DNA of 64,000 bases from Terebella lapidaria. Lineage: Eukaryota > Annelida > Polychaeta > Terebellida > Terebellidae. The stretch is taken from the NCBI GenBank assembly GCA_949152475.1, contig OX424567.1, forward strand, positions 23,151,402-23,215,401. The letters run 5' to 3'. A program made the translations under genes and the position numbers. The notes under the pieces are model-generated. The model did no database searches. It saw nothing but the letters and a program-made list of their open reading frames with translations, and had not been told where the DNA came from. Positions 7,825-60,646 of the stretch are shown here, in pieces; the stretch's first letter is position 1, and every line of letters starts with the position of its first letter.

Positions 7825-7954
7825 ACCAGATTCAGAGTGAAAGCCCAAATGAACCCCACCCCATGTGCCATGATCTGAACCAACATGATACTTCGATCAA
7901 GGGCGAGGTCAGGTACAGGTTCGAGGATAGTTATGTTGCAAAGAGATAAAAAAA

Positions 7955-18500: not shown

Positions 18501-18636
18501 GGACATGTTTATTCTTCGCAAATGTTCATATATTCCTCATAATATCTACACACAGAGGATGTTTCAAAATAGTCAGTGCTGTTTGCGTAAAACAATAATG
18601 TGAAATAAGTATGAGGAAAAAAAATTGGAAGAAAAA

Positions 18637-21133: not shown

Positions 21134-21191
21134 GGTAGTATTATGGAGGTAAGTATAGTAAATAATACTAGTTTTAACCTTAAAACGACGA
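21134..21191. repeat. DIRS internal complementary region
   Basis: Reverse complement of 20889-20946 over 58 bp with one extra A in the outer copy. It overlaps the recombinase stop codon (TAA at 21180-21182). Confidence 0.85.
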
Positions 21192-24337: not shown

Positions 24338-25871
24338 GCAGTTCGGAGACTAGTTGGGCATTGGCCGACTGGATGTGGTCCGACACTTGCCGTTCCTCGG
24401 CTGAAAGAGCGCCGTCCTCTCCGTGGAACAGGGAGTTGGCGGCCTGGTCCGTGAGAGCCTCCTGTGCGCAGGACAGCAGCATGGGGGCAGAACGTAGTTG
24501 GGATTTCAAATCCAGGGACGGCTTGAAAGTCAAGGACTTGAGGAAGGCGTCCCGTCGCCACTGCTCCATGGTGAACGCGCCGTAAGAGAGCTGGTGTAGG
24601 CGATCCCGGCGCTGGACAGAAATCCGATGGCGGTGGAGATCTGATCCTGAAGGGCAGCTTGGGGGACGGGTCCCGCAGAGGCTTGCTGGGCCATGTTCTC
24701 GAGGAGATCCCTCGCAGCGGCTAAAAGCCAGTCCTGGGTGGAGGCGATGAGAACAGCTGAACGAATCGACTGTTGAACATCTGCTATCTGGGCAGGGGTC
24801 ACCGAGATCTTCGAGGGGGCCGACATATACTGAAGAGTCTTCTTGGAAGGCTCTGACGGCTTCTCCGTGAAGTCCTTGTGGGAAGGCAAGTATGAAGAGG
24901 AGAGCTTGGGTTTCTTGATCTTGTCTCCCTTGGCCTTGATGGAGGCTTGGCGACGAACCTCGAACGCCTGGCGTAAGCTGCGGCTGAGAGGCAGTTGCTG
25001 GCGTGAACTTGATGGCGGTACTGGCTGGCCACAAGAAACTGGTTCCACTGATGAGGAGGCTTCCGTCGGAGGCTCTGGTGGAAACTGGGAACCGAGACGC
25101 GCACGCGTGAGAACCAACTTCTCCCGGAACTGGAGTATGTATGGACGCGGAGTCCATATCCTCTTCTTCGTCCTCTTCTTCCGAGTCGGACTCCGGGTCG
25201 GGACAGCGACGCTTCCTTGAAGCCGAGGGAACGAAGCCGGAAGAGGGCAGCACCTGGAGCACCTGAGCCGGGGTGACTCCACGGGAAGATCCTGGAGTAG
25301 GGCCGACAACCTGAGCCGGAGTGGCTAAGAGCTGGTCCGGGGGTAAGAGGCCTGGTAACTGTAGGGACTGGGTCCGCTGCAGAGGCATGGATAGTCCACA
25401 GGTGGCCTCGCTCGCACGGCCTGCGAGAGGCAAGAATCCAGGAGGAGGAGCAGTCGGGGGACGACACTGGAGGAGGCTGTGCTGTACCTGAGTCGAGAGC
25501 TGCGAGAACATCGCTTGCATTTGTGCCGAAATGCGAGAGGAGATGTCTAGTTCCAACTGCCGAAAATCCTGAGGCACGGAGGAGGCAGGTGAAGGTAACG
25601 TAACGGACTCCGCTGAAGAGCGGCCCGCGAAGACAGTCGTGAGAGGTTGGCCCGAAGGCCCGGACGTCGCTGAAGAGCAACCCGCAGAGAGTAGATGGCC
25701 CGAAGGCCCGGACGTCGCTGAAGAGCAACCCGAAGTCTGGCCCGAAGGCCCGGACGTCGCTAAAGAGCGACCCGCTGTGGCAGGGTCCGTAGAGGGCATC
25801 CCGAGGGAGCTGTCTGGCGGCGAGGCTATCCGCTGGATCGGCGGCGGGGAAGGCCTGCTGTGCTGGGACAT
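24139..25871 (-). pseudogene. DIRS Gag-like region with two compensating frame changes
   Basis: The frame starting at 25871 gives a low-complexity S/P/G-rich N-terminus, with a Q-rich helix near 25540-25480 and an acidic patch SDSEEEDEEEDMD near 25180. The expected Gag body then reads in another frame (about 25170-24610; SYLPSHKDFTEKPSEPSKK, AQIADVQQSIRSAVLIAS). It returns to the first frame (LHQLSYGAFTMEQWRRDAFL) and ends in a basic tail. Two opposite frameshifts are therefore likely. The N-terminus contains three copies of SSATSGPSG encoded by a minisatellite (25640-25790). Confidence 0.7.
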
Positions 25872-25916
25872 CGACTGGAGAGAGAGTGAGAATTAGACAT
25901 ATCGTCATAACCTCCT

Positions 25917-25935
25917 CCCCCCCCCCCCCCCCCCC
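25917..25935. repeat. C19 tract inside the DIRS element
   Basis: Nineteen uninterrupted C on the plus strand, just upstream of the Gag-like frame in transcription order. Confidence 0.9.
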
Positions 25936-26266
25936 ACTTTCACCGAAACATCGCGCCCTGAGGCAGTCAGATGCGGTGGAAGATGAGGCGAGCACTCACT
26001 GCTAGCATTGAAGCCATTAGTCCGAATAGAAAACGGAGGCTGGTCGGAATCTAGGATCCGATGGGAACCCGGGTCCCGGGCCCCGACAGGGGCCGGGAGC
26101 CCAACTAGCCCTGTTTCTAACTCGACCAAACCACTAACGTCAGTTACTAATGCCCGAGGTGGGCATAGAAGCAACGCCGTGGTATCGAGGGACAAGCCTG
26201 AGCTGGTAGCGGAATGCCGAGGAAGACGCAAGCATGGTCTATCAGCATCTGATACCTTAACGAGAG

Positions 26267-27076
26267 TCATGTTCCTATCGGAACCTGGGTTCCTATCGGA
26301 ACCCGGGCCCCGAGCGGGGCCCGGGACCCAAGCGCCAACGTGTAGCTGTATAGCTGACAGTTCCCATCGGAACCCGGGCCCCGACCGGGACCCGGGAGCC
26401 GAGCACCGTCATCTGACATGAGCGTGACAGATGAGAGCGCGGGAACGGACGGAGTGTTCCTACCGGGCCCCGGGCCCCAATCGGGACCCGAGCTCCGAGT
26501 GCCCACGCAAGGCATGGACTCGGAAACACGACGCTCGGAGTGAACAGAGAGAAAACGATTAACCAGGCTAGCTGGAAAATCTAACAGACTCCGAACACTC
26601 AAAAGCTGAGGGCGCAATGCCGAAAGTAGAGAGCGGCCCACCACATCACCCACCACACCTGACGGGGCCAGAGCCGCACACACAGGTGGGGGAGAGGGAG
26701 GGACAAACATGACATTACAATCAAATTTATGACAAAATTCCTGTGAGTCTAAGAGGGACAGGGCGTCTACACTCACTGGGGATTGTAAAGCTAAATTAAG
26801 CCGAACCAACTCAGTGTCGAAGCGACGAATGGCGGAGAGACGACGCACCCGGGCGGACCGAGAGCAGTCAACATCAGGTGGGGAGGGACGTGAACGGAGG
26901 TGAAGTAAATCCCTCAACGCCCCATACACGGTTGACCAGTCCTCTGGTGAACGAGATTCGCACTTGTCGCAAGGAAAATCGTCGATGCAGAATGAATCCA
27001 CACACCGCCAACAAAAGTCTTGGACCTCCCACGCTGGTAAAAACACGTGGCACCGGCCACACACACGCGTGGGCAT
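26267..27076 (-). CDS. DIRS first ORF with CxxC motifs
   Basis: 269-codon open frame starting MPTRVCGRCHVF. Paired cysteines (CGRC, CWRC, CDKC within residues 6-40) suggest a small zinc-binding head. The C-terminal third is a repeat region encoded by a GC-rich minisatellite (26040-26500, CCCGGGCCCCG-type units) giving RVPIGA-like peptides. It lies at the 5' end of the element, ahead of Gag, but I do not know whether it is a separate product. The overlapping plus-strand frames are shadows. Confidence 0.55.
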   Translation of the reverse strand: MPTRVCGRCHVFLPAWEVQDFCWRCVDSFCIDDFPCDKCESRSPEDWSTVYGALRDLLHLRSRPSPPDVDCSRSARVRRLSAIRRFDTELVRLNLALQSPVSVDALSLLDSQEFCHKFDCNVMFVPPSPPPVCAALAPSGVVGDVVGRSLLSALRPQLLSVRSLLDFPASLVNRFLSVHSERRVSESMPCVGTRSSGPDWGPGPGRNTPSVPALSSVTLMSDDGARLPGPGRGPGSDGNCQLYSYTLALGSRAPLGARVPIGTQVPIGT

Positions 27077-27256
27077 GGTCAGCTCAGCTCACTCAAACAG
27101 TAAAATCTGGGCGTGGACTACCATCCACGTGTTAAAAAGGACACCACTAACGACTAAGTCCTTTCCTGCCGAGTTTCCACAGAGATGGAACGATCCAAGC
27201 AATAAAATTAAACAGAAATATAGAGTAGGCATAAGTAGGTCTGCTTCCTTCAATAG

Positions 27257-35510: not shown

Positions 35511-38040
35511 ATAATAATAATAATAATAATAATTTATTCATTTGTTGAGCGCAACATTACATTCGTTACTATGCGCTTAACAGGTATAAAACATGTGAAA
35601 AGTGAGTCCTGTATAATATAAAACACATGAAACATAGGTCTAAATGATGCTGTAAGAACATTTAAAGAGGTGGGTTTTAAGAAGTTTTTTAAAAGTACTG
35701 GTGGTCATAGGGCACCGCATGGCAGCAGGAAGTTCGTTCCACATTTTAGCTCCACGTACAGGGAATGAGCGCGACCCATACTGGCGTGACACACGACTCA
35801 CAACGAGTTTCCACCCATCAGAGCCAGACCGAAGAGACCTCGAAGGCCTGTAGAGGACAAACATGTCCTTCAGATACAGTGGTGCTGTTGGCGAGTGAAT
35901 CGCTTGCTGAACGTTGACAAGGACCTTGTAGGAGATCCGTTCTCTAACAGGTAACCAGTGTAGAGCCTGCAGGACTGGAGTGATGTGTTCCGACTTTCGC
36001 GTTCCAGTTATCATACGGGCGGCGTTGTTCTGGACCATCTGGAGACGTTGCAATGTCGACTCTGGCAACCCTGTCAAGGTACCGTTGTGGTAATCCAGCC
36101 TAGACAGGACGGTGGAGCACACCACTTTTTCACGTGTTGATGCATTGAGATGGTGCTTGATCCTGCCAATCCTCCTCAGATGGAAGTAGGAGCAGCGTAT
36201 GACCTTGTTCACCTGGTCTGTCATGGTCAAGTTGCAGTCCAAAGTGGCACCTAAGTTTGTGACAACCGGTGATGGTAAGATGACTGCATCACCAACACGG
36301 ACACTAACTCCGACAGGTGTAGCTGTGTACCGCCTTGGAGTCACATATAAACACTCCGTTTTGGAGTCGTTTATTTTTAGTTTGTTGGTCAACATCCAGT
36401 CGCGTACTTTGTGCAGACAGAGATTCATGTTGTCAACACTCTGATCCCGTACAACTGTGTCCTTGAGTGATAGTCGACAATACAGCTGGGTGTCGTCTGC
36501 GTATCCGTGGCGCGATATGCCAAAGCTGTCAATGATGGACTGAAGTGGGAGGATGTATACGAGGAAAAGGAGCGGGCCAAGCACAGACCCTTGCGGTACA
36601 CCCATGCATACCGGCATTTCACCAGACACAGAGTTTTTCACTCGAACGACTTGTTTTCTGTTGCAGAGGTATGAACTAATCCATACGAGTGCTTGGCCGG
36701 TGATACCAACATCATGCTCCAGTCTCCTGAGAAGTGTCGCGTGATCAATGGCGTCAAACGCCGCACTCAAGTCCAACAGAACAACGAGGACGCCATCTCC
36801 TTCATCAAGAATTTGGTCAAGGTCAGATTTAATTCTGAGGAGGGCAGTCTCTGTGCTGTGTGCACGTTTATACGCTGACTGTAATTGGTCATGGAGTCCA
36901 TTTTCAGTGAGATACGACGTTAGTTGTTTTGCAACTACACGCTCCAGAACCTTGCTGATAAAGTTCAGATTAGAAACTGGCCTGTAGTTGTGCAGTTCTG
37001 TTGGATCCAGTGTTTTCTTCTTGAGGAGAGGTGTTATTTGTGCCCTCTTGAACTCAACTGGAACAACGCCACTCTGGAGCGACTGATTGACAATCCTACA
37101 AATTGTTGGAAGGACAGTGTTCAATATATCATCGTGTTTCAGGAGCTGTGTTGGAATTATGTCCAACGAACACGACTTTGTGGCACTTTTGGAGATTATT
37201 TTCTTGATGTCTTCGATGGTTTGTGACCGGAAACTGAGAAGTTCACACGGTGCTCTGTATGATTCAAACTGCGAAGTGCAGACAGCTGTCCCCAGTTTGT
37301 CCAGTCCCTCTCTTATCGCATTGACCTTGCAGTCAAAGAATACAGCAAAGTCATTTGCAAGTTGAGTTGGGTTTGAAGATGGAGGAAGAATCATATCATT
37401 TGATAAACCCAATAGTCCATCAAGTAGACGAAACGTGTCTTTAGAGTTGGCGTTGTTGAACTGTTCTTGATAATAACGTGATTTCTTGTCATCAATCAGT
37501 TGGACAACAGTCACACACTGGGATTTGTACATCTGCTTGTCTATCTCCAGCCCAGACTTGAGACATTTCCTCTCGAGTCTGCGCCTTATCCTACGCTGTA
37601 GGTGGACCTCGTCGTCGTACCAGGGTTTTTGAGTCGCCCCCTTGATACGTACAGATCTGGTCGGTGCGTGTTTATCGATGACGTCTGACACTGCTTGGTG
37701 AAAACTATCCAAGATGTCTGTGGATTCCATATGGGAATCTAGTCTCAACTTCGCTTGAAGATCAGCGGCGAATCTAGCCCGGTCGATCTTACTGATTGAA
37801 CGTGCTGTTACCTGGTGTTGTACGGACGAAATGCTGTTCATGCGAAGAGAACACCTGACCAGGTAATGGTCAGAAATGTCAAGGTTCTCGACAGAGTTCA
37901 ATTTCACACTTGGTGATGGATCATCTGTTCTCGTGATTACGAGATCCAGTATGTGTCCTCCCTTGTGAGTGGACAAGTGCACATGTTGTTGCAGATTTAA
38001 TGCTGAGAGTATCCGATTGAAAGAGATTGTCAAAGTCAAA
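35511..38040 (-). mobile_element. 5'-truncated CR1/L2-superfamily LINE
   Basis: Minus-strand non-LTR element. It starts inside the endonuclease domain and ends in an (ATT)n tail, seen as AAT repeats at 35511-35532 on the plus strand. The insertion is in a 147-bp satellite monomer, whose GGTCAA sequence continues on both sides. A short duplication such as GTCAA is possible but not certain. Truncation at the 5' end is typical of target-primed reverse transcription. Confidence 0.9.
35640..38039 (-). CDS. LINE ORF2 fragment: endonuclease C-terminus and reverse transcriptase
   Basis: 799 codons without a stop. Residues 1-70 are the end of the apurinic-type endonuclease (HILDLVITR, then SDHYLVRCSL). 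A linker with KPWYDDEVHLQRRIRRRLER follows. RT begins near residue 250 and includes HNYRPVSNLNFISKVLERVV, LLDLSAAFDAIDH, GVPQGSVLGPLLF and the active-site GYADDTQLY (about residue 510). The C-terminus has LQALHWLPVRERISYKVL, which is characteristic of CR1/L2-like elements in invertebrates. No true start codon is expected because the element is truncated; the listed start is simply where the open frame begins. Young-looking by its uninterrupted frame. Confidence 0.92.
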   Translation of the reverse strand: MTLTISFNRILSALNLQQHVHLSTHKGGHILDLVITRTDDPSPSVKLNSVENLDISDHYLVRCSLRMNSISSVQHQVTARSISKIDRARFAADLQAKLRLDSHMESTDILDSFHQAVSDVIDKHAPTRSVRIKGATQKPWYDDEVHLQRRIRRRLERKCLKSGLEIDKQMYKSQCVTVVQLIDDKKSRYYQEQFNNANSKDTFRLLDGLLGLSNDMILPPSSNPTQLANDFAVFFDCKVNAIREGLDKLGTAVCTSQFESYRAPCELLSFRSQTIEDIKKIISKSATKSCSLDIIPTQLLKHDDILNTVLPTICRIVNQSLQSGVVPVEFKRAQITPLLKKKTLDPTELHNYRPVSNLNFISKVLERVVAKQLTSYLTENGLHDQLQSAYKRAHSTETALLRIKSDLDQILDEGDGVLVVLLDLSAAFDAIDHATLLRRLEHDVGITGQALVWISSYLCNRKQVVRVKNSVSGEMPVCMGVPQGSVLGPLLFLVYILPLQSIIDSFGISRHGYADDTQLYCRLSLKDTVVRDQSVDNMNLCLHKVRDWMLTNKLKINDSKTECLYVTPRRYTATPVGVSVRVGDAVILPSPVVTNLGATLDCNLTMTDQVNKVIRCSYFHLRRIGRIKHHLNASTREKVVCSTVLSRLDYHNGTLTGLPESTLQRLQMVQNNAARMITGTRKSEHITPVLQALHWLPVRERISYKVLVNVQQAIHSPTAPLYLKDMFVLYRPSRSLRSGSDGWKLVVSRVSRQYGSRSFPVRGAKMWNELPAAMRCPMTTSTFKKLLKTHLFKCSYSII

Positions 38041-38880
38041 GTTTATCCATAATACCCCTTAGACATGTTTGTCTAGTGCCACGAGTCCGAAAATAACGTC
38101 CGTTTCGCTCTACGTTGCACCGTTTCTGAGATATCGATGAAAACGAAAAATGCCGACTCGGCAGAAAAATTCAAGGTCAAGGTCGAAGGTCCTCCCTAAT
38201 ACCTCTTAGACATGTTTGTCTAGGGTGACGAGTCCGAAAATAATGTCCGTTTCGCTCTACGACGCACCGTTTCCGAGATATCGACGAAAACGAAAAATGC
38301 CGACTCGGCAGAAAAATTCAAGGTCAAGGTCGAAGGTCATCCTTAATACCCCTTAGACATGTTTGTCTAGGGCGACGAGTCCGAAAATAACATCCGTTTC
38401 CCTCTACAACGCACCGTTTCCGAGATATTGACCAAAACGAAAAATGCCGACTCGGCAGGAAAATTCAAGGTCAAGGTCGAAGGTCACCCTTAATACCCTT
38501 TAGACATGTTTGTCTAGGGCGACAAGTCCGAAAATAACGTCCGTTTCGCTCTACGACGCACCGTTTCCGAGATATCGACGAAAACGAAAAATGCCGACTC
38601 GGGGAAAAAATTTCAGGTGAAGGTCAAAGTTCATCCATAATACCCCTTAGACATATTTGTCTAGTGCCATGAATCCGAAAATAACGTCCGTTTCGCTCTA
38701 CGACGCACCGTTTCCGAGATATCGATGAAAACGAAAAATGCCGTCAAGGTCAAGGTCAAAGGTCATCCTTAATACCCTTTAGACATGTTTGTCCAGTGAT
38801 GAGTCTGAAAATAACGTCCGTTTCGCTCTACGAGGCACCGTTTCCAAGATATGCAGGAAACCTCAAGGATGACTGGGCGA
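38041..38880 (+). repeat. 147-bp satellite array
   Basis: The phrase AATACCCCTTAGACATG recurs at 38051, 38198, 38345, 38492 and 38639 (147 bp apart each time) and at 38771 (132 bp). Each unit includes TAGACATGTTTGTCTA, CGTTTCGCTCTACGACGC, GAGATATCGA and TTCAAGGTCAAGGTC. Confidence 0.95.
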
Positions 38881-43120: not shown

Positions 43121-44076
43121 AGCCTATACAACACTGTGCGGATCGTATGATTAAAAAAAGAGAACTATCTATTCAAGTGATGCCTCAAATCATCTTGGAA
43201 GAAATTAAGCAGATGTTTTGCATGGCATCCGTCGACCGTCGTCGTCGTCCGTCCACAATGTCCACAAGGTCGAATCTTTCTGAAATTTTGCACAAAAATA
43301 CCTAAAAATGTTCTTAAAAGGGGGTATTTTTTTTTCAAGTTTTTCGCACTTTTTTTTCAAAATGGCAGACATTTTCGACGAAAATGAGATCAAAGGTCAA
43401 ATTCAAGGTCAGAGGAATATTTGACTAGGAATGGATTGAAGACACACGGGAAATGATATGTGTTGAATATTTTTAATTGTCATGACTTCGAATTTCACCT
43501 TCGATCTCGTTTTCAAGACCGGAGCACAAAATGGCTAATATCTAGCCTATACAACACTGTGCCTATACAACACTGTGCGGATCGTATGATTAAAAAAAGA
43601 GAACTATCTATTCAAGTGATGCCTCAAATCATCAAGTGATGCCTCAACAAATATAGCCTATACAACACTGTGCGGATCGTATGATTAAAAAAAGAGAACT
43701 ATCTATTCAAGTGATGCCTCAAATCATCTTGGAAGAAATTAAGCAGATGTTTTGCATGGCATCCGTCGACCGTCGTCGTCGTCCGTCCACAATGTCCACA
43801 AGGTCGAATCTTACTGAAATTTTGCACAAAAATACCTAAAAATGTTCTTAAAAGGGGGTATTTTTTTTTCAAGTTTTTCGCACTTTTTTTTCAAAATGGC
43901 AGACATTTTCGACGAAAATGAGATCAAAGGTCAAATTCAAGGTCAGAGGAATATTTGACTAGGAATGGATTGAAGACACACGGGAAATGATATGTGTTGA
44001 ATATTTTTAATTGTCATGACTTCGAATTTCACCTTCGATCTCGTTTTCAAGACCGGAGCACAAAATGGCTAATATC
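43121..44076. repeat. Near-identical 422-bp tandem duplication
   Basis: 43121-43542 recurs at 43655-44076 (offset 534) with almost no differences (for example TTTCTG against TTACTG near 43276/43810). The join between the copies contains shorter third and fourth repeats of CCTATACAACACTGTGC and AAGTGATGCCTCAA, suggesting slippage or an assembly join. Confidence 0.92.
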
Positions 44077-44898
44077 TCGCTTATTATCAACTTTACATTC
44101 ATGTGGACGTACAGGAAATTATGTATGCCGGATATTTTGATGACATTGAATTCGACCTTTGACATAATTTGCGAGGTCACAGGACGAAATGGCTTATATG
44201 TCACTTTTTATCGACTTTACAGCTTAGGAATCAATTGTGCACATATAGGAAATGATATATGCTGCATATTTTTATGAGCTTGAACGTGATCTTTGACCTC
44301 ATTTTCAAGGTGAGGTCATTTTCAAGGTGAGGTTATTCCTACAGCCTAGGAATAAATTGTGAACACATAGGAAATGATATATATATGCTGAATATTGTCA
44401 TGACCTTCAATTTGACTTTTGACCTTATTTTCACGGTCGCAGGACAAAATGGCTAATATCTCGCTTATTATTAACTATAGAGCTTGGGAATCAATTGTGA
44501 ACATACAGAAAACATATAGGAAATGGTATACCCTGAATATTCCGCTGACCTCGAATTTGACCTTTGATCTCCGAGTCATTTTCAAGGTCAGAGCACAAAA
44601 TGGCTAATATGTTGCTTGATATTGACTTTACAGCTTGGGAGCTGAAGCATGGCAAATATTTTGATGACCTTGAATTTTACATTTGACCTCATTTTCAAGG
44701 TCAGAGCACGAAATGGCTAATATCTCGTTTATAATCAACTTTACAGCTTGGGAATCGATTGTACACATATAGGAAATGATGTATGCCGAATATTTTGGTG
44801 ACCTTAAATTTGACCTTTGACTCATTTTCAAAATGGCTAATATCTAAAATATAAAAACACATATTGTCCGGTAACATTTCTCAGCCCTTGGGCTAACT
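43207..44898 (+). mobile_element. Satellite-bearing non-autonomous element (family B, copy 3)
   Basis: Reverse orientation relative to 7955-9086: the GTCGTCGTCGTCCGTCC module first, then AAAATGGCAGACATTTT, then six or so tandem monomers (44076-44860), ending in the hairpin AGCCCTTGGGCT and AACTTTTG. The GGTAACC terminal piece is missing at the left, and the left part is doubled by the 422-bp duplication. Confidence 0.8.
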
Positions 44899-45269
44899 TT
44901 TGTTTATTGTCTGATTTAATATTTTCTTCTGTCATTTAACATAGTCACTTGTTGAGTTGTTACGTTAAATGTGCTGGTGAGAATGAGAGAAAAAAAAAGT
45001 ATTAGGCTCTATTTTCCTTTGGAAAAATATACAAAATTTAGGCACTTCTGTAACGATGGACTGTGGTGATAAAGCACATAAAATTTGAAACATTTACGTC
45101 TAATACTGAAAAAAGTTAAGGTCCTGCCTCAATATTAAATTTCAGCGCTAAAAGATATAATTGAGCGCATTCAAACAACTGTGGAGGAAAAAAAATCCTC
45201 CGTCATTGATGCTGTGCATATATACACAAGCAATGTAATATAATTCAAATTGCAAATGTGAAAACAATA
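44899..45269. other. Spacer, nothing recognised
   Basis: AT-rich, no ORF or repeat boundary seen. Confidence 0.6.
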
Positions 45270-48905: not shown

Positions 48906-50165
48906 AGGTATGACCCTGAACACTAGGTCAGTGTGTAACAAAGCCATCACAATACTAGAACTTCTACAAGAACTGGACTGTGACTTCGCATTGTTGTCTG
49001 AAACTTGGCTGAAGCCCTTGGATACCTCTGTTATCAACGAGATTTGTCCTGGTTTCACAATCAAGCACTCCTCTCGAGAATTGAGACGTGGAGGCGGAGT
49101 TGCGCTCCTGTACCATTCTAACTTCACGGTGAAAGAGACTCGCCAAGATCCTGCACCTACTACATTAGAGTACGTGAACTGTGTGATCCAGTGACCATCC
49201 AGACTGAATGTGTGTGTCGTATACATACCTCCTTCTTCTTTGTCTTCGCTTGTCGACCAGTTCTTGTTAGAATTTGATGACTTCCTGAGCTTGTACAAAC
49301 CTTGTACAAATTGATGACATTCTCATTTGTAGAGACTTCAATTTCCATGTGGACAATGTACGGTCCACGCCAGTGGTTAAGTTTATGGACGTATTGAAGG
49401 AGAACGGACTTCATCAACATGTCAGTGGCAGCACACATCATCTCGGACACACACTCGACCTCCTGTTGACCAGACCTCGTGAGTTGCTGTTCTCAGATCC
49501 ACTGGTTCTGGAGTCCCAAATATCCGACCATCACACAGTAACCTTCAACTTCTCAGGCAAACGTCCTGCTTCTCAAGCCACAAGAACCTCTGGTCGTGAC
49601 TATCGAGCATCCAACCCAGATCGTCTCAAGGCAGATGTACTCACCTCTATGGCAGCATTAACAAACGCTGACCAATCTGTTGATGTTCAATTCTCGCACT
49701 ATGATACTGCTGTCAATACTGTACACGACAAACATGCCCCTGTGGTCACCAGGCGCAGGAAGACCTTCACTACGCATCCCTGGGCTGACGAAGACTTCGC
49801 TAGGCTCAGGAGGGAGAGACGTGCAAGTGAAAGGTTGTGGCGTAAAACAAAGCTCGAAGTTCATCACCAGATTTTCATTGAACGACGAAACATTGTGGAC
49901 AATCATGGCACTTCTCTGAAGAAGAACTATTATCATAATCAGTTCACCTCGTCAAATCAGAAAAAAAACTTCAAGATCATGAACAATCTTCTGGAAGAAC
50001 TTTCCTCAATATCCAAACAGAAGACAGCCAGGTGCTTTGTGACAGATTCTCTCAAATTTTCACTCTGAAAATTGACTTGATACTCGCTGACCTGGAATGT
50101 CGTTCAAGTCAGCTTGATCCTGCTCGGTTCAACTCTTCGATCAGTTATGTGTAACAACCACAGGC
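48906..50165 (+). pseudogene. L2/CR1-like LINE, part 1 (endonuclease), interrupted
   Basis: Begins within the endonuclease (TLNTRSVCNKA, LLSETWLK, RRGGGVALLYHSNF). After a stop and frameshift near 49195-49350 it continues with DFNFHVDNV, HTLDLLLTRP, SDHHTVTFNFSG, and a linker with THPWADEDFARLRRERR and NYYHNQFTSSNQKKNFK. It breaks at 50166 where the 10.5-kb transposon begins. Coding resumes at 60647-60694 (DTIPTWLLKVTIDAH) and again at 61573. Confidence 0.85.
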
Positions 50166-50440
50166 ACTTGGGAACCATTTAATTGAGGGTACAATGTGCT
50201 ATCTATAATAATATATACAAGGCACTCAAGCACCTGTCGAGAAAATGGTGGTTGCACAAACACTCGAAACTTCAAAGCTCCAAAAATGCTACTTGCCCAC
50301 GAGATTGATACAAACCTGGATAAACATATATCCATAAAATAAGGGTTTCCTAGCACATTTTATATCACCTGTACCCACAGTGACTCGTAACGTGTTCGAG
50401 TGATAACCTGTATAATATAGAATATAGAAGTGGGGACACA
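50166..50440 (+). repeat. Left terminal inverted repeat of the P-like element
   Basis: The outer ~130 bp match the right end almost perfectly (for example CAATGTGCTATCTATAATAA and CTTCAAAGCTCCAAAAATGC). The inner part (ATATCACCTGTACC, GTAACG, GGGGACAC) matches the right side again beyond the inserted MITE. Confidence 0.92.
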
Positions 50441-51372
50441 GCGGTTGAGTTCAAATGTAAACAATGGCATTGTGAACAGTTTTTGGTCCTCCACACGTAT
50501 TTGGCAGCCTTATAAGCTCACATGAACATTGCTTACTACATCCATAGGCATACTTAAGCATAATTCGTAATAGAAACAGAATATTTCCAGAAATATTCCA
50601 TTTCAGGCCAAAAATACCATGAACCTAGACCGGAAATAGTAGGACGGTTCCGCAGATAATGCTCATCTGTCATGTGATTGGTTTATGTAATGGAGAGACC
50701 GATCATTGCATAACTTTGGGGGCGAGATTACCAGATACCATAAATACCAGTTTTCTTACAGAATGGGATGCAGCATTTCATAATCGTTTGCTAGCAAGCT
50801 ATGTGCGCACCCGACAGTCCTTACATGTACTATGCAGCACTGAGCTATAGCCGATCATTGTGCACAAAGTGAGACTTGTTTTTTGTGTGATATACACTGA
50901 CATATATTTGGTATACGTACGTACAGTATTAAGAAAATAATATGACCAATATCATTGTTATCATTTTTATAGAAAAAATTGTGTGTATCATGTTGAACAT
51001 CCAAACAAAATATAGGATTGGAGTCATTCAATGATGTTTCATTACTAGATAATGAAACAATATAACTTGCCTGTTTGGGACATTTAGGTCTGTGTATTTA
51101 AGTTATCAATATGCCGACGTCAATGTTGATGTCAGTGATCCCTGTATACCATGCTTCCACTGAATATTGTTGAAAAAGAAATACTAATAAATAGTATGAA
51201 ATGTAGTTGATACAAATGGCGTCCGATTGCATGAAAGTTAATTTACAACCTTCATTGGCATTTATCATTTGGGAGTGGTTACAATATCTGGTTACACAGG
51301 CGCCATCTACTGAATCATTTGTAAGACCTCGTTCTTTTAAAAGAAATTTGCACACCTGTCATATTGGGAGAA
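50441..51372. other. P-like element, 5' noncoding region
   Basis: No coding sequence recognised between the left terminal repeat and the helicase start. Expected to hold the promoter. Confidence 0.5.
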
Positions 51373-54300
51373 ATGATGGCGGACATGAAGGAATGCTTTT
51401 GGTCGTTGGTGAATGGTGGCCACAATGTCCTTGTGAAAGGCCAGGCTGGTAGCGGTAAAACGCACTTGATGAGAGAAGTTAAGAAATGTCTTAGTAAAAG
51501 GATTGTATTGACTGCCACCACTGGAATGGCCTCAAGCCATCTCCCTGGGGGTATCACTGTACACAGGTATAGTTTTCAGTTTGACCTTCATCATATGAGA
51601 AAGAAATATTGGTATGCTAGCAGAACTGTTGGTACAATTGTTTGAATGTAGGTTTGCTGGCATACTGGATGGACGATATCCGGCAAGCAAAGTTATCGAA
51701 CAACTGACGACGGGTGACAAATATGAAACGGCTCAGAAGATACGTGCTACTGACTTGCTTGTCATAGATGAGATATCCATGCTCTCTGCCAAATTATTGG
51801 ACCTCGTTGAGGAAGTGAGTGCTTGTGTTGCATATGCTGATTGTTTCCCATAAGAAATGAAGGGTGAAGCTTAATTGGACATTTTGGAAATGACATGTTT
51901 TGTATTTTAATAAGGTCCTCAGAGGAATCAGAGGTAATAACGACCCTTTTGGTGGCATGCAAGTTATTCTCTGTGGAGACCTTTATCAACTGAAGCCTGT
52001 ACCAAATCCCTCATATGGAGACCCTGGACATTACTTTTTTGAGGGCACAGCTTTTAAGCACATAGCACATTGCTTGACGTTGAAGGACATTCATAGGCAA
52101 AGTGAAGGTCGTTATCATACTTTTACAGTCTGTATTTGAACAAAATTCAGTTCTGCAATATGCATATGAAGACATATGGCACCTATATCCTGTTTTGTTT
52201 GTAGATGACCTCGTTCATGCCATTCGAGATATCAGTAGAGGTGTAGCTGATCAGGATACTTTGAACCTTATAACTCGCTTGCAACGAAAGCTTCCCCCAG
52301 GCCCAGACCCAATGAGAATATTCGCTCGCAAACTTGACAGTGAGAAATGCAATGCTGACCATTTGCTGGATCTTGAAGGTATATATTGAAAAGTGTATGT
52401 AGAGGTGTCATGAGTGAAAGATGCCTGTGTATAAATATGTGGAAACTGTATGTGCAATTTGTAACCAAATATAACATGAGCTATTCAATGAAGCATAAAT
52501 ATAGACATGTATTTTGACGTAAAATGTGTAGGGCTGGGCTGGTGGAATGCCAGTGTTTGACTTTCTTGCGCGAGATTTTAGTGATTGTCCAAGAATGATG
52601 GAATTCACTGTTGAGGAGTACACAGCATATGACGGGTTTGTAGCATTGCCGTTGTAAAGTCAACGAATTTGACAAAATTGGTTTTCAACAAGGTCCGTGT
52701 TGAATCGGGAAGGAACCACACCACTCCCTGGAAATTGGGTGAGATGAAGTCGACAGACCTCAGGAAATGCCATGAGTAGGCATATAAGGTCTTCCATGCA
52801 TTCCCAGGTAGGAAGCATGGAAGACTTCACAGCATTTCTGACACCAACAGTACATTTCACCTGATTTTCCCAGTCCTTGAACCACATCAGTACACCAGCA
52901 ATTTGGTCCAGACGAGAGTCATCCATGGCTGTTATGGGGCGGTGGTCGCGGAATATTTTGACCAGAACGCTTGTCTGCATCAACAACTGTATAGATTCGT
53001 CAAGATGGGCACCATTACTGTCCTTGAACGAGTCGTGGTAGCATCGCATGAGGAACAGCATGCTGCTGTCCAGAACGTCCTCGGCAAGCTTGTTTCTCAT
53101 TTTTTGTGGGCCATCGGGATCTATGTGTTCCGGGGTGAGCTCACGGTGGATGGGACGACTGTTTGTCTTCTTATCCCACTCAGCCGCATCTTGCCAATGC
53201 TTCCATGTAATGTGTTTGCCGTTTTTCTTCATGTGCCTGGTGTGAACCCCTTTGACAGTGCCACTGTGAAGAATACTGTTCCTCAACTTTTTTAGAACAT
53301 GAGAAGGATCTTGGCAGTGAACTATATTGTCACAGGGATTAGTGAATTTCGGACAAACGTATCGCGTTTCTGTTGGCTTTCCGGAGAATTGCATCTTGAT
53401 GAGCTGTCGATTTTCCTCTCCACCATCTTGCAATGTGAAATCCACATTAAAGCCGTAGTCACTGAGTTGACCGATGGTGTCCCATAGGATGGCGCTCATC
53501 TCCGATGCCTTCATGCTGTTACAGGGGTAATGGCATACAAGGAATTGGAATCCTGTGTACCCCAGGAAAGAAACTTGCCACCAGGTGTGGCTACAGCTTG
53601 TGTGAGTTGTCCCTGCCTCAACACTCGCATATGACGTCCTTCCTCTCCTGATAATTGGAAAAATGATGTTATGTATCATGCAGCTATCACAGATCACACA
53701 CACATATAATATATATATTTGATATAGTTTGTTACTATATTATAATGATGAATTGTTCCCCATGGAAATGAGTGCTACTGCCATAATTACCTGTATCAAC
53801 CCAACCGATGATCTGGGGTTGCCCGTCGCTGTACGAAAGTACCAGGTCCTGTTGCACCTTGGCTTCATCATGAAGCAAGCCGCCACACATGCCATGTGGA
53901 GGAACACGAGACTGTTGTGCCGACTTCAGCATCCAGTCCAGTAGTTGTCGATTGACACCACAGCCTTGCTTCACGAAGTTCTTGTATCTCCACAGGTGTC
54001 TTCCAGATGGTAGAATCAATACCCCTGAATCTTTCAGCTCCTGGTATGACCCGGGACTGCGGATCCATAGGCTCAGGCAGGTGCTGATGACTTTGGGATC
54101 CCATCGTCTTGATGTGACAGTCTTTGCCATGAGTGCGTCATGTTGGCTTTGCAGCAGTGTTCTCATGTCTTCCGATGCACCTAGGTATAAATATGGCACG
54201 ATATTGAAATGCATATTCACAAAGTAAATGTATACTTTCAAATTTCGATTTGTCAGGCTTTCAACACTACCTGGGAACACTCGAGACAGTATTGCAGATA

Positions 54301-56037
54301 CATCATCATGGTCATTGGTATTGAGGTCCACTGTTTCTGTGTCGGATGATGACTCAATTGACAGAAAGGAAGACACTCTTTCATATGACATACATGGAAA
54401 CATGCAAATGACATTCACACCTGAACAAACATAAACCATTTCCTGTACCTTTTGGTGACATAGGAGTGTCTTTGACAATGGAGCCACAATCACAATTTCC
54501 GGCCTGGTTGGTCACAGATGACACCCTGGTATGTGGCTGTTGCTTGGTGTTGTCATTGTGACATCTTTTAAGGTTGAGGAAATGCCTCTGGCATGTGGTA
54601 CACAAATTCGTCAGTGAGTCCAACTTCAGCAGTCTTTCGCAAGAAGCAGACCTGCATACCATTTTTGTTTCCTGAGTACCAAGTGTCATTTTCTCTGCTT
54701 TGTGGTTGGCCAAGTCAGTGTTCACTTCTTTTCCCAAACATGGTTTGAGGAGTTCCACTACAGAAAGGATGGACTGAATTGACTCCTTCGATTTCGTGAA
54801 AGTGGGATCTATGTCCATCACGTCCAGTTCGACCTGACGCCCAAGAACATGCACCTCCCAGTGGGAGTCATCAAAATGGAGTCTGATTTCCTTGGTGAGA
54901 ATGTTGTCATTGATGCTAACTTGCGAAGGGATATACAGTGCACATACGTCCTTCCCTATCAGTCTGTATGACGCTCTCCCTTCGAGACATGATGGAACGC
55001 TTGTAACATCCGTAGCAGTTGATGTAATCGAGATGCAACGAATCCCACGGAACATCTTGACAGGCTTGCCATCTGTTCGCTTGTTTGTCATGTTCACAGA
55101 TGGGAATATACGTCGCAGTAGTTTCCCTCCTACAACTCGGTTGATTTCTGTGCCAGACGTTGTGGAATACCGTGACCACACCTCCTCACATGATACACGA
55201 CCGTGTGGATCACACTGAAGATTTTGGATCAACCTGAAAGAAGCCCAAAGCGCTTTATTACATTGCTGATCAAGGACAAATAAACATGACCAATATTCAT
55301 TAACTTTGTGTTAATCATTCCACAACAAACCCACACCCATGACATACAGAAATGTGTTTGGTTGCTTCATACTGAAACAGTTCACTCATAGGCACCATGT
55401 CAATGTTGATGTGATCATGTGACACCACTAGTCATGTACTCTTGTTAATGTTGCAGGCGACATGTACTCCTTCCCATCGAAGGATGACGGAAAAGTGCAT
55501 TTACTGACAGAAAGTAATGCGCTTAGAACCCTTCATGTCAAAATCAATGCACCAGTAGTACTGATAGCAAATATATCATCGAATCTGGTGAATGGATTGC
55601 TTGGAATTGTCAAAGGTACAACCCAAACCACAGCCACAGTTACTTTCCCATCCCTAAACGATACCGTTGAAATTTCTGCGTACCGATTTCCACTGTATTG
55701 TCCCATTACCGGGAAGGATGTAGCTGTCCGATATCAGTTGCCATTACGATTGGCATTTGGTCTTACCGTACACCGGGCTCAAGGAGTGACAGTCAGTCGT
55801 TTGGAAGTGGACTGTAAAAATATGACACTTCCAGGACAGATGGGTGTGGCAATAAGTAGAGTGACAGAAAAGAAGGGTTTGAGGGTGATAAATTTTCGTC
55901 CAAGTCTTCTCAACATGCATCCACAGTCCATCCAAGATTTCGACAAGACATATGTCATAAATTTGAATTTGGATGTCAAGGACTGCTGTAAGAAAACCTC
56001 CGACAGTACCACTAAACCAACCCCAGCAACAAAATGA
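51373..56037 (+). CDS. Pif1-family DNA helicase of the P-like element
   Basis: Five exons: 51373-51566, 51652-51814, 51915-52107, 52205-52378, 55457-56037. All introns are GT-AG and phases agree; total 1305 bp, 434 aa. ATP-dependent 5'-3' superfamily 1B helicase motifs in order: Walker A GQAGSGKTHL (residues 25-34), TATTGMAS and the GG..HR block, Walker B LLVIDEISML, GDLYQLKPV (motif III), LTLKDIHRQ, then LVNGLLGIVKG, and the motif V/VI pair TVHRAQGVT and GQMGVAISR in exon 5. It is short for a full Pif1 but has the complete catalytic core. I chose the ATG at 51373 (the next ATG follows at once); an upstream exon is possible. The fourth intron (52379-55456) contains the transposase gene in antisense. 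The likely role, unwinding DNA during transposition or copying, is inferred. Confidence 0.85.
52500..55233 (-). pseudogene. P-element/THAP9-like transposase, one in-frame TGA
   Basis: Exons in order: 55233-54449, 54420-54271, 54180-53791, 53642-about 52500, phase-consistent. Residues ~8-60 resemble an RFX-type winged helix (VSCEEVWSRY, VVGGKLLRRIFPS). A Cys cluster (CRSASC..LCTTC) lies near the end of exon 1. The RNase H-like catalytic part starts with RRWDPKVISTCLSLWIRSPG and GGLLHDEAKV (candidate first Asp). It continues with TLQDGGEENRQLI (candidate second Asp), HCQDPSHVLKKLRNSI, ELTPEHIDPDGPQKMRNKLA and NTDLVENQFCQIR. This order is that of P/THAP9 transposases, about 750 aa long. A TGA at 52660-52662 interrupts, after which similarity continues (LYNGNATNPSYAVY). 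The first coding exon upstream was not found. The gap between the first two exons is only 28 bp. Confidence 0.8.
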
Positions 56038-56074
56038 AAAACTGGTGTATCATTGTTTCCCGAATGAACAACCC

Positions 56075-57574
56075 ATGGCGGACAATGTTGGCGATGATTC
56101 AGAGATTACTATAACTTCCCAGAAATTAGATGATGAAGAACTACTTCAGTTCCTGGAACAGCAAGAATCCATGTCAACTGGTGGTGATTCACCGATGACG
56201 GCAGCGTTACATCAGAATGAAACCGACAACACCTCAGGCAATGATGCCCCACCAGATTTAGAGATATATTTACAATCATATCAATACATAAACCCGTCGA
56301 CTCCACAACAAATGAACTTGAACACTGTGATAGACCGATTGCTTGGAGACAGGAAACCACAACTAACATCATTCGTTCGTACCATTCAAAACATAATCAC
56401 TGAAATAGCTAATCGAATTATGGTTGGACATATTGAAAATCAACACTGTACACAATACATGAAAGAATGTATGCCCATCCTGACCAGTGACCGCTACAAA
56501 TTACTCGTCACACAACTTTTCAACTTGGGCGAAGTGACTAGCATTGAAGGACATCATTATCGGGCCGGATTCCTCATCGTGCAACACATCAGAATGAAAA
56601 CCCTCGAACAGTGTGCATCCGTTTTCATTAGTAACCGCGATGATACCCACATTGAGTCAACATTCGAGAGTTCTCCAGGGGGTGATGCTATCATCCGGTA
56701 CATCGGTGGTTGGACAATAGCCAAATTATCATATTTGAAGAGTAAAGCCATAGAACAGAAATTATACAAGCCTAAATGCCGACAACAAGTAGACCACGAT
56801 TACTTGTTAACATCTCTGCTAGACCAGCTGATCACTTCCTATGAATACCTTGCCGAGCACTCCAACTACAAAAGCACTTTAAGTGTAACGGAAAACAAAC
56901 AAAACAGCAGACGATCATTGACACATATTACTGATGACGCATTCCTTTTTTACAAATCCTTGGATGATACAATCAGAAGGCTACAAAGTAGACAAAACAT
57001 CAATGAGCACTGTTCAAACCTATTCCAGTTTGTACACAGTAGAGTCCTCAATGACGAATGTCTCACAGACATGTGGTGCAAACTGTTCAGTTGTGAAGAC
57101 ACAACATATCCAAAAGAACTGTTTCATGACATCACAAAGAAGTATTGTCTCATGTCCATTGCCCAGCTCAGGAAGGACCATCTAGTTGCATTAAAACGTG
57201 AGAAAGAAGAAGCACACAGAAAACAAATAAAAATCAAAGCCAATCAGCATTCATCCACTTGTGATTTTAATTTCATCATGCAAGATACATCCGAAAATAA
57301 AATCAGCTCACACAAACGGCTTCAGAGTGAAATCATAAAGCATTCTAAATTCATGGAGAGATTCACTAAAAATCAGCTGTATCAATTATGTCAAGTGTAT
57401 GGGGTCACATATAAGACCAGTGAAAGGAAAGCAATCATAGCGGACAGACTTGCAGATTGTGTTGTGGACACTGATGATGCGCCCTCTTGGTTACCAGACA
57501 TTGATAGGGCAGGTGAATATTATTTATTTCCATTACCTATCCCCACTGCACTTTGGAAATCACTGATGACATAA
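56075..57574 (+). CDS. ~500-aa ORF with SAP-like motif, P-like element
   Basis: Uninterrupted 499 codons from an ATG in good context (CCCATGG). The frame is open from 55973, so it overlaps the helicase end by 65 bp in another frame. The N-terminus is acidic and polar (MADNVGDDSEITITSQK). The middle has GDAIIRYIGGWTIAKLSYLK, recalling a helix seen in P/THAP9 C-terminal regions. A charged helix KREKEEAHRKQIKIK follows, and near the C-terminus FTKNQLYQLCQVYGVTYKTS with RKAIIADRL resembles a SAP-type DNA-binding motif. It may be a separate accessory protein or the distal part of a fusion with the helicase. I found no splice that joins them in frame. Function unknown. Confidence 0.65.
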   Translation: MADNVGDDSEITITSQKLDDEELLQFLEQQESMSTGGDSPMTAALHQNETDNTSGNDAPPDLEIYLQSYQYINPSTPQQMNLNTVIDRLLGDRKPQLTSFVRTIQNIITEIANRIMVGHIENQHCTQYMKECMPILTSDRYKLLVTQLFNLGEVTSIEGHHYRAGFLIVQHIRMKTLEQCASVFISNRDDTHIESTFESSPGGDAIIRYIGGWTIAKLSYLKSKAIEQKLYKPKCRQQVDHDYLLTSLLDQLITSYEYLAEHSNYKSTLSVTENKQNSRRSLTHITDDAFLFYKSLDDTIRRLQSRQNINEHCSNLFQFVHSRVLNDECLTDMWCKLFSCEDTTYPKELFHDITKKYCLMSIAQLRKDHLVALKREKEEAHRKQIKIKANQHSSTCDFNFIMQDTSENKISSHKRLQSEIIKHSKFMERFTKNQLYQLCQVYGVTYKTSERKAIIADRLADCVVDTDDAPSWLPDIDRAGEYYLFPLPIPTALWKSLMT

Positions 57575-57774
57575 CTGTTCATTGCATACACCATGTCACA
57601 AATTTTTAAATAGGGTTGCACCTGTGCATATAACACGGGAAACTATAAGGAAGAAACAGCATGGTAACTGTGGCGACTATACCTATACATCACAAGGGGT
57701 GTTTTGTCATAACACTAACTCATATTTTTGCAGCTTAACGTTGTAAGGCAATATATTTCCCAGGAGTTTGGAAT

Positions 57775-58191
57775 GTGGTGACTTGTCGGCAGATTCAAGT
57801 GCTCATTCTAGTCCCACTGAACAGTTGGTTCCAAGGGACAATTACTCGTGACTCTGACGAGGCTGTGTATTGGCATGATGATTTCCGGAGGTCCTGTGAA
57901 CAGGGTCTGACAGTCCGTCTGCCTCACTGGGCTTCTATCTCCGTGGTGGGCCGTCGGCGGGCCAAACCACCAAAACGCTTACATGCTCTGTTACTGGAAG
58001 TCGCCTCCATGGCTTACGGTCTCTGGTGCACTGGCCTACATGACTGCATACTAACACCTGGGTTTCGCACATCAATAGCCATAACACTTGACGGGACGTT
58101 CGCTACCTACAGAGTGGGCGCAAAACGTTTCATATCATTGCCAACAATAATGGATTGTACCCATACATTTGTGTATATTACGTTCGACTGA
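57775..58191 (+). CDS. Orphan ORF in the P-like element
   Basis: 138 codons, no family recognised. Trp- and Arg-rich middle (SWFQGTITRDSDEAVYWHDD, VVGRRRAKPPKRL). A possible acceptor (GTCGGCAG) precedes 57792, so the first residues may not be coding. It lies between the SAP-like ORF and the PHD exon on the same strand and could be an exon of either. Confidence 0.4.
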   Translation: MVTCRQIQVLILVPLNSWFQGTITRDSDEAVYWHDDFRRSCEQGLTVRLPHWASISVVGRRRAKPPKRLHALLLEVASMAYGLWCTGLHDCILTPGFRTSIAITLDGTFATYRVGAKRFISLPTIMDCTHTFVYITFD

Positions 58192-58609
58192 CTGAAGTGA
58201 ACTTATTGGACACACATCAATGACCTGCTGTGTCTTCTCACAAGCAACTTATTCAATAATGGGGGTTTCACGCATTCACCTTGTATTTTGCTGGCTTTGG
58301 TGAACACGCCATAACAGTTTTTTTTGTAATAATATCACATCCTTTTGTTATAAAACACTTGGTTGTCCTTCCATTAACATGTTTGTCCATGCATGCATGT
58401 AATGCAAAGAATGAAGTTCTCGATGCAAATCGCTGCAAACAACATAACATAGAAATCTATGACAAATCCTTTGTTATAAATGAAGCCCTAGCATGATAGT
58501 CGAAAATGCTATTACTCATCAATTGTAGTTACACCATGGAGCTCTATGGTTACACACTGAATTACACCCTCATGATAACCCTCTCTCTTTTATACTCATT
58601 GTTGTAACA

Positions 58610-58813
58610 GACACAGAAGACGAACAACCATTGCCTAAACGACGCAGAACTGACGCAACTGTACAGTGGCCGTGTGGAATTTGTGGGTGTGAATGCAGCA
58701 CAGATTGCGTTGGATGTGACAGATGTCAAAAATGGTTTCATTTCCGATGCCTCAAGCTGAGACCTTCCCATCCCTCACTAAAGAGGAAGAAGTGGTTCTG
58801 TTCTGTGTGTTGG
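58610..58813 (+). CDS. PHD-finger exon in the P-like element
   Basis: An exon bounded by TGTAACAG| and TGG|GTAGG. It encodes an acidic lead (TDTEDEQPLPKRRR), then a PHD finger with the C4HC3 ligands: CGIC, C..C (CSTDC/CDRC), H in KWFHFRC, and CSVC. PHD fingers read histone H3 tails, so it may help tether the element to chromatin (inference). Partner exons are uncertain; 59485-59555 (acceptor GTGGCAG, donor AG|GTAGTG) is a candidate next exon. Confidence 0.65.
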
Positions 58814-60071
58814 GTAGGTCGGGATAAAATGACTTGCATACAATTACCTCCTTTTCGGATGTCATCCAGTGATTAAAGGTCATACTTATTTGATTCCGTG
58901 ATTTACGAATTTGTTAACAAACAAATCTGGGAGGTCGGAATATAAAAGTAAATATAAATTTACAGTTTGAAAATAAATAAATCAATGTAGAAATAAATTT
59001 ATTTCGACAATTTCACCAGTCGGTCACCCTGAAATAATTACTATTTATAATTATCTTTCAAGAACGTAGAAGTTCTTGATGCAGTTTCCACGAGTTTTCT
59101 CTCAGTGTTCTCCCCAGGAAAAAATAATCATCCTGATAGTTATCAGTGATTTACAAATGTGCACCAAAGGCGTGCCTCCATTAGATAATTGATATTTATT
59201 TTGGATCTTGATACAACGGTTGGCGGCAAAATCAATACTTTGGTACTTTCATGGCAATTATATTTATTTCCCTTTTCAGTAAATGTAGGGTCGGGAGGAT
59301 CCGTAAAGTAGCGATTAAAAAAAGTATGGGTTTAGGTACCCTACACTGCTCATCATTCGTGAATAACGTGTATATCGATATAAAAAAAAACTCTTCAGCC
59401 TTGTCAATTGCACAACACACGCAATACACCCACAGTGTACTCCATATAGTCCTACGTTCAATTATTTTTCTTAATATTTGTGGCAGAACCGCTTCGAAGT
59501 GACACAATCTCAACGGCACCATCGGCACAGGAATACCACCCGCACCCGTATACCAGGTAGTGAATGACCATGGGCTTGGAAACATATAAATAACGAATAT
59601 TGCACTATGTCCTGTTTATAAAATACACCTGACTCACCAAGAACACATATATTGACGTTTTTCACTCATAATGGTTTTGCACTTTGGTGGAAGCCAATTT
59701 GAAATATAAAACTACTAAACACTGATGACAATTTGCAACCAATGACATCGGCATTTGCCCTTCACCTTGGATGAAAGCCAAAAAATACTAACTTCCGGTG
59801 CAGGATCATGGTTTCGTGATCCGAAAATTTTCATCAATAATAATAATCGTGAAAAGCTTGTTTAACTGCATGTCACGGTGAGCAATGGCATATGTTCATA
59901 TTATATGACACCCACTGAATGTGTGCGTGTGCAAATTGTATACATTCATGTCGTTTAACCCTTTTTATGACACATTTTTATCGAGGGTTCTGAATGAGTG
60001 TCCTCACTTCTACTATTTATTTATAGGGCATATATCAACGAATGACAACGTTACGAGCCACTGTGCCTGTA
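58814..60071. other. P-like element, right noncoding part
   Basis: AT-rich with a possible small exon at 59485-59555. The inner segment of the right terminal repeat begins near 59990. Confidence 0.5.
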
Positions 60072-60646
60072 CCGCTTCCAAGACCTTGCGTGGCTGGAAT
60101 TTGGATTCAAAACATCCGTTGTGCACTTGTTTTTGGTCGAACACGTTGTTTTGACATTGCTCAAACTTGAGATCACGAACTGTAAGTCATGCAGATATAT
60201 AGATTTCTATAGGAGTATATTAGTGTACGATTAGAGAGAGCTGTACTCACGTCAGTTCGGCTGTTTTTGCTGACCAAATATGTCGCAAGAAACGGACATG
60301 GTACAATGAGCTCATGTGTTTTTCACCCAAACAAATGCACAACGGATGTTTTGAATCCAAATTCCAGCCACGCAAGGTCTTGGAAGCGGTAGTGGTGATA
60401 TAAAATGAGCTAGAAAACCCTTATTTCATGGATATTATGTGTCAATACTATACTAACTTGGATATAGAGTCTTCACGGCTTTCACGAGACATGCTGGTTT
60501 GTATCAATTTGGTGGACAAGTAGCATTTTTGGAGCTTTGAAGTTTCGGGTGTTTGTACAACCACCATTTTCCCGACAGGTGCTTGAGTGCCTTGTATATA
60601 TTATTATAGATAGCACATTGTACCCTCAATTAAATGGTTCCCAAGT
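59990..60646 (-). repeat. Right terminal inverted repeat, split by a MITE
   Basis: Outer part 60392-60646 and inner part about 59990-60071 together match 50166-50440 inverted. The MITE at 60072-60389 separates them. Confidence 0.85.
60072..60389. mobile_element. 318-bp palindromic MITE inside the right terminal repeat
   Basis: About 55-bp near-perfect inverted ends starting CCGCTTCCAAGACC, flanked by TA (60070-60071 and 60390-60391). Its removal restores collinearity with the left terminal repeat, which dates it after the P-like element. Confidence 0.9.

Follow-up and report, generated by a model that had tools for sequence, protein, structure and literature searches.

Within a 64,000-nucleotide stretch of the genome of the polychaete Terebella lapidaria (contig OX424567.1, positions 23,151,402 to 23,215,401; hereafter the window, numbered from its first letter), a P-type transposase gene lies close to a gene encoding a Pif1-family helicase. 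This raises the question of whether the two genes belong to a single transposon and, if so, what such an element would do with a helicase. We found that both genes are carried in one mobile unit that is present in many copies and in several families, a conclusion that we regard as practically certain. Dozens of large P-like elements in this genome encode a helicase joined to chromatin-binding parts, and in many of them the transposase gene lies antisense in an intron of the helicase gene. As an overall explanation, we favour, with slightly better than even confidence, a two-gene P-superfamily cut-and-paste transposon that carries a Pif1 helicase for gap repair.

The limits of the window copy, termed here the Pif1-P element, were placed by the homology of sibling copies, which starts at 50376 in three of them (C7, C12:2298840, and C3:42319497) and stops at 60065 in C7; in a copy on C6, the match extends 6 nt beyond each of these positions. 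The element thus delimited (50376..60065; 9,690 bp) has the ends CACAGTGACTCGTAACGT and ACGTTACGAGCCACTGTG, reading CACAGTG...CACTGTG, and 18-nt terminal inverted repeats at 50376..50393 and 60048..60065 (repeat pair I5, 17 positions matching). It is flanked by an exact 8-bp target-site duplication, CCTGTACC, at 50368..50375 and 60066..60073, which was the sole exact match among 601 same-offset positions. The original prediction had placed the termini at 50166 and 60646, the outer tips of another inverted repeat pair enclosing the genes. That pair exists, but its tips were rejected as ends of the helicase-bearing element because sibling copies are homologous to the window only from 50376 to 60065; the proposed alignment of copies thus moved the termini inward to the positions flanked by CCTGTACC. 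The heptamer CACAGTG, terminal at 50376-50382 and 60059-60065 and likewise at the ends of the two families described below, is identical to the heptamer of the V(D)J recombination signal, a likeness that may be due to chance.

The transposase gene lies on the minus strand inside the fourth intron (52379..55456) of the plus-strand helicase gene. An ordinary P element that had landed by chance in an intron of a helicase gene, or of a helicase-bearing element, could look the same, as the opposite strands and the nested layout suggest an insertion, and the outer inverted repeats proved to be those of another element. However, the layout recurs across the genome (761.6 Mb in 438 contigs searched). 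We scored 97 of 454 helicase, 56 of 324 transposase, and 150 of 496 PF21787 candidates; because only part of the candidates was scored, the genome counts are lower bounds, and a distant helicase near control loci could be missed. All 90 transposase matches were grouped into 46 clusters, of which 43 had the helicase matched at a distance of at most 9 kb, in every case on the opposite strand and never on the same one. The nested layout was found in 22 clusters, where the N-terminal and exon-5 matches of the helicase lay on different sides of the transposase; a further 11 lay beside exon 5 only, two had N-terminal exons only, and eight, all in a tail-to-tail orientation, had an intronless helicase as neighbour. 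Among the 150 other P-type loci scored as a control, not one lay within 10 kb of a match to the helicase or to SAP. Furthermore, no inverted repeat pair of at least 14 nt flanks the transposase inside intron 4, where only 8-9-nt matches occur, and the 16-nt pair I11 lies outside this intron, in intron 3 and exon 5. The chance nest is refuted by copies of the whole unit, in which exact duplications surround both genes, and we assign it a negligible probability. Outside this genome, two pairs of homologues, the transposase P0005 with the SAP-PHD protein P0020 and P0014 with P0051 (Mytilus edulis), each share exactly the same longest contig size, which suggests linkage there too.

Two families of whole units were delimited. 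The F1 copy at C12:5163532-5173998 measures 10,467 bp and has AACTAAGT on both flanks; nine of the ten matches to its left end begin at the first base, and seven run over the whole 367 nt. The F1 copy on C8 has a truncated left end, and no target duplication was seen there. The F2 copy at C8:10251905-10264892 is 12,988 bp long, with 255-nt terminal repeats (99% identity) and AGTTCACA on both flanks, and its sibling on C17, 99.6% identical in the parts compared, is flanked on both sides by CACAAAAC. Six F2 terminal-repeat pairs were found on six contigs, 12.96-14.35 kb apart and 99-100% identical to the query end; each encloses helicase and transposase matches, and 12 of the 13 full-length end matches form these six long pairs. 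A second layout is represented by L140, in which an 853-amino-acid (aa) frame with a Pif1 match (9.5e-14) and a weak PHD match, and without the start of the motor domain, stands tail to tail with a 786-aa transposase. The linkage, the whole units with duplications, and the control loci together give strong support to a P-type transposon with a Pif1 helicase of its own, and the arrangement that was to count against this, helicase and transposase in separate elements with different termini, was not what we found, since whole units enclose both. As a separate observation, an F1-family left end at C11:26533359-26535176 is accompanied by helicase N-terminal exons with no nearby transposase match, perhaps an internally deleted copy.

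The outer inverted repeats (50166-50321 and 60491-60646; 156 nt, 95% complementary) are those of a short, multicopy non-autonomous element that was invaded by the Pif1-P element. Its left part occupies 50159..50375 and its right part 60074..60646, with ends of the form CACAGGC...GCCTGTG; on the right it lacks its final 7 nt, and it has no duplication of its own. A 7-nt deficit at the right end and the lack of a full duplication had also been considered for the Pif1-P element, wrongly, as they hold for the short element only. After removal of the Pif1-P element and one duplication, the rejoined short element was 98.2% identical to the intact copy L082 over 627 nt, ungapped. The junction was spanned by 9 of 29 short-element loci, and the CCTGTACC site is undivided in intact short elements. 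Many short elements with CACAGGC...GCCTGTG ends matched the outer repeats in the genome search, and the 30 loci examined included 17 distinct repeat pairs, of which 15 were compatible with an 8-bp duplication as judged from seven bases per side; L087 and L105 were incompatible, and L100 and L101 share identical flanks. The short element seems to sit inside a long interspersed nuclear element (LINE): its two flanks both match a LINE protein taken from another part of the window, the left one at 1e-24 and the right one, about 0.9 kb in, at 1e-9. Judging by its ends, this high-copy element (loci L082-L110, with 8-bp duplications) is perhaps also P-type. Ends of the CACAGGC type also lie about 7.5 kb apart at C6:10420792-10428261, enclosing neither a helicase nor a transposase match; they may mark another element that is nested in a short copy.

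The helicase gene runs on the plus strand. Exons 1-4 (51373-51566, 51652-51814, 51915-52107, and 52205-52378) encode the Pif1 motor, with Walker A (GQAGSGKT) and Walker B (VIDEIS) motifs recognized by eye, and exon 5 (55457..56037) encodes the Pif1 2B domain (a weak Pfam match) and C-terminal motifs. The five exons form a single open frame of 434 aa with GT-AG splice sites throughout, and PF05970 scored above the cut-off in two of them, confirming the 434-aa helicase of the original prediction. The gene continues at 56075..57512 with a helical middle domain (RYIGGW) and a SAP-like motif identified by eye, and its last exon (58611..58876), preceded by a splice acceptor and ending with its stop-bounded frame, encodes a PHD finger (PF00628, 1.3e-07). 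The SAP frame and the PHD finger had been listed as separate accessory proteins; both are present, but in relatives the helicase, SAP, and PHD parts are one gene. One frame joins the Pif1 C-terminal part with the SAP protein in P0020, P0023, P0024, and P0025, Pfam found a PHD finger in four of the seven rows of their alignment, and many copies in the Terebella genome have single frames of 685-906 aa that span both exon 5 and the SAP part (714 aa in the C7 copy). The relative P0051 ends, and P0020 and P0023 begin, near the position of intron 4. The SAP part of the window copy is out of frame with exon 5 owing to a slight difference in length from the sibling copies. A 150-aa open frame at 57739-58191, in the last helicase intron, matches no Pfam family over the cut-off and may be an extra gene or chance.

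In the helicase tree, the window falls in a 13-row group (100/93) with helicases of Haliotis, Holothuria, Ptychodera, Mercenaria, Mytilus, and Tegillarca, whereas bacterial Pif1 falls in a separate group of 22 rows. In the fold search with the P0020 model, nothing reached E <= 0.001; Pif1 and PHD domains were among the weak rows, and none was convincing for the helical middle domain. A scan of viral contigs with the helicase alignment returned 80 loci that are general Pif1 relatives (29-38% identity) and were not used, and the SAP-alignment scan of the same contigs found no relative. Intronless Pif1 relatives at C1:27881762, C12:11684852, C1:90381205, C13:22406893, and C3:13822334 had no P-type transposase detected within 9 kb; SAP-domain matches lie near all of these but the last, from which one lies about 12 kb away, and a transposase partner may be too diverged.

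The transposase gene occupies 52408..55233 on the minus strand (exons 55233-54449, 54375-54271, 54180-53791, and 53642-52408), a reading backed by homologues and by the structure of the relative P0001; the join of exons 1 and 2 was picked among several candidates, and the first few codons were not found. PF21787 matched the window exons weakly and below the cut-off (E 0.0018 and 0.084) and was present in 10 of 10 rows of relatives at about 40% identity, bearing out the P-type transposase of the original prediction, which is of the RNase-H kind. The ten relatives share invariant acidic columns (D411, D511, and D756/E759), with window equivalents recognized by eye in HDE, QDGG, and NTDLVEN; these columns are consistent with a catalytic triad, and which of them are catalytic is inferred. 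The best structural match of the P0001 model was the Drosophila P transposase, with Transib and RAG among the next matches. For the GTP-binding insertion domain of the Drosophila P/THAP9 subfamily, the structural alignment covered residues 115-563 of the 6pe2 chain, while Pfam gave no PF21788 match in A1 members. A sequence profile search of the PDB gave nothing genuine. Pfam scans, which did not cover the missing first codons of the window gene, found no N-terminal THAP zinc finger, so the element was not filed under the THAP-bearing subfamily; RFX_DNA_binding matched weakly, under the cut-off, in two of the ten relatives and in L140. The transposase tree contained 29 rows, three of them wrong-frame pieces (L121, L125, and L126), and was therefore used only for the grouping of the window with L135, L138, L120, L122, and L123 (100/100). 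The transposase-alignment scan of viral contigs found no relative, and neither did a scan of genome contigs. An in-frame TGA at 52660-52662, together with the frame break between the helicase and SAP parts, indicates that the window copy is probably inactive.

What the helicase does is a separate question. P elements can gain copies because host repair refills their excision gap. In the reading that we favour, the transposase of the first gene would act at the CACAGTG ends, excise the element, and insert it with an 8-bp duplication. The second gene, on the opposite strand and wrapped around the first by its fourth intron, is predicted to combine Pif1 and a helical domain with a SAP-like motif and, at the C terminus, a PHD finger. 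The PHD and SAP parts may tether the helicase to chromatin and to element DNA beside the excision gap, whose 10-13 kb the Pif1 motor would then cross by driving D-loop synthesis of the break-induced type; in this way the donor copy would be restored from the sister and the element would gain one copy. This suggests that the helicase is a transposon-borne repair enzyme aiding copy gain. The proposal builds on excerpts of PMC8951532, in which PIF1 is reported to be required by budding yeast for break-induced replication and, when POL32 is absent, to be necessary if a 14-kb P-element gap is to be repaired efficiently. Such a role would account for a helicase without replicative transposition, and it predicts long, complete copies, a pattern that F2 fits and F1 fits less well, both in small numbers. 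We give this mechanism slightly less than an even chance.

Several observations weigh against the favoured reading. Three of the 46 transposase clusters had no helicase match within 9 kb, one of which (C6:32099461) has a SAP-domain match about 9.2 kb away on the other strand and an F1-like end 3.5 kb away. Conversely, 21 of 64 helicase clusters had no transposase match within 9 kb; some of these look Helitron-like by frame length, but others are relatives without a detected partner. Both genes lie beside only four of the seven full-length F1 left ends, and the genome copies, whose counts are lower bounds, are related rather than independent. In addition, the need for PIF1 in gap repair was reported for the absence of POL32 (excerpts of PMC8951532), and the helicase might instead serve a different step or work on chromatin.

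The last of these points can be taken further. The fused protein might be mainly a chromatin or anti-silencing factor, whose PHD and SAP parts would aid integration or expression by targeting chromatin or opening it, and whose Pif1 motor would clear R-loops, G-quadruplexes, or bound proteins. Foldseek rows for the PHD part do include H3K4-methyl readers (probability near 1, E 0.25-1.9), and the finger was found by Pfam in four of the seven aligned rows and, weakly and under the cut-off, in the tail-to-tail family. However, a chromatin role alone does not explain the conserved Pif1 motor, and we consider this unlikely, if worth keeping in view. Alternatively, the helicase could act in transposition itself, melting or peeling a strand at the ends to give a replicative route. 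Helicase-bearing Helitrons are known to replicate, and the six F2 copies are long, with a terminal repeat at each end, but the 8-bp duplications, CA ends, and P-type RNase-H transposase suit cut-and-paste, and no HUH-Rep or polymerase domain was found in Pfam scans of 17 open reading frames and exons (10 + 7); this route appears distinctly improbable. Finally, the helicase gene may be a passenger without a role in transposition, as P-type transposases are reported in excerpts of PMC10983969 to be active on elements without their own helicase gene. Open frames of 685-906 aa retained in many copies, and a fusion kept by relatives in other animals, make this very unlikely.

If gap repair is indeed the role of the helicase, a P-type lineage that encodes a Pif1 would have made gap refilling, otherwise dependent on the host, a step encoded by the transposon. 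It is possible, though we hold this more tentatively than the mechanism itself, that the lineage took over the host step: a chromatin-tethered Pif1 would make gap repair processive, so that cut-and-paste acts as a copy-maker and elements grow to 13 kb, with the two genes locked together by the antisense-in-intron placement. Such elements would be a natural test of the limits on transposon size and copy number, and the antisense gene-in-intron layout, kept across several families, is an unusual means of keeping two transposon genes together. Elsewhere in the window, long frames at 21180-27088 (minus strand) resemble by eye a tyrosine-recombinase (DIRS-like) retrotransposon, and related tandem-like repeats occur at 18629-20436, 7946-9002, 43957-44907, and 38029-38852.

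Our literature search found no P-type element with Pif1, within a coverage that left out most subscription papers and Repbase, where such elements may be catalogued. Helitrons carry a Pif1-family helicase as part of a rolling-circle Rep-helicase and make no target duplication. The Pif1-P elements share the helicase family but have target duplications, with no HUH Rep domain fused to the helicase in the 17 frames and exons scanned, and the probable Helitron helicases of this genome are separate frames of 2,197-2,312 aa. KolobokH and Kolobok-1_CCri are, like the Pif1-P elements, DDE transposons with a helicase, which Kolobok-1_CCri encodes on the complementary strand; Kolobok differs in its TTAA duplications, its superfamily, and its helicase, which is RecQ rather than Pif1 (excerpts of PMC9587614). 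AcademH is likewise a helicase-encoding DDE transposon but belongs to another superfamily with duplications of 9-10 bp (excerpts of PMC10045372). The duplications of the Pif1-P elements are of 8 bp and not TTAA, in contrast to those given for Kolobok (TTAA) and Academ (3-4 or 9-10 bp) in the same two sources. The closest resemblance is to the P superfamily, represented by the Drosophila P element, whose transposase is the nearest structural match, and by THAP9/Pdre2 (features of Pdre2 from excerpts of PMC10983969): the 8-bp duplications, exact in the window copy, the F1 copy on C12, and two F2 copies, the inverted repeats beginning with CA (CACAGTG in the window, F1, and F2), and the RNase-H transposase with PF21787 are all shared. 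The Pif1-P elements differ from P and THAP9 in having weak RFX-like N-terminal matches in some members and no THAP match, in their size of about 10-13 kb against about 3 kb (the figure given in the original prediction), and in their second gene, which encodes Pif1, SAP, and PHD parts.

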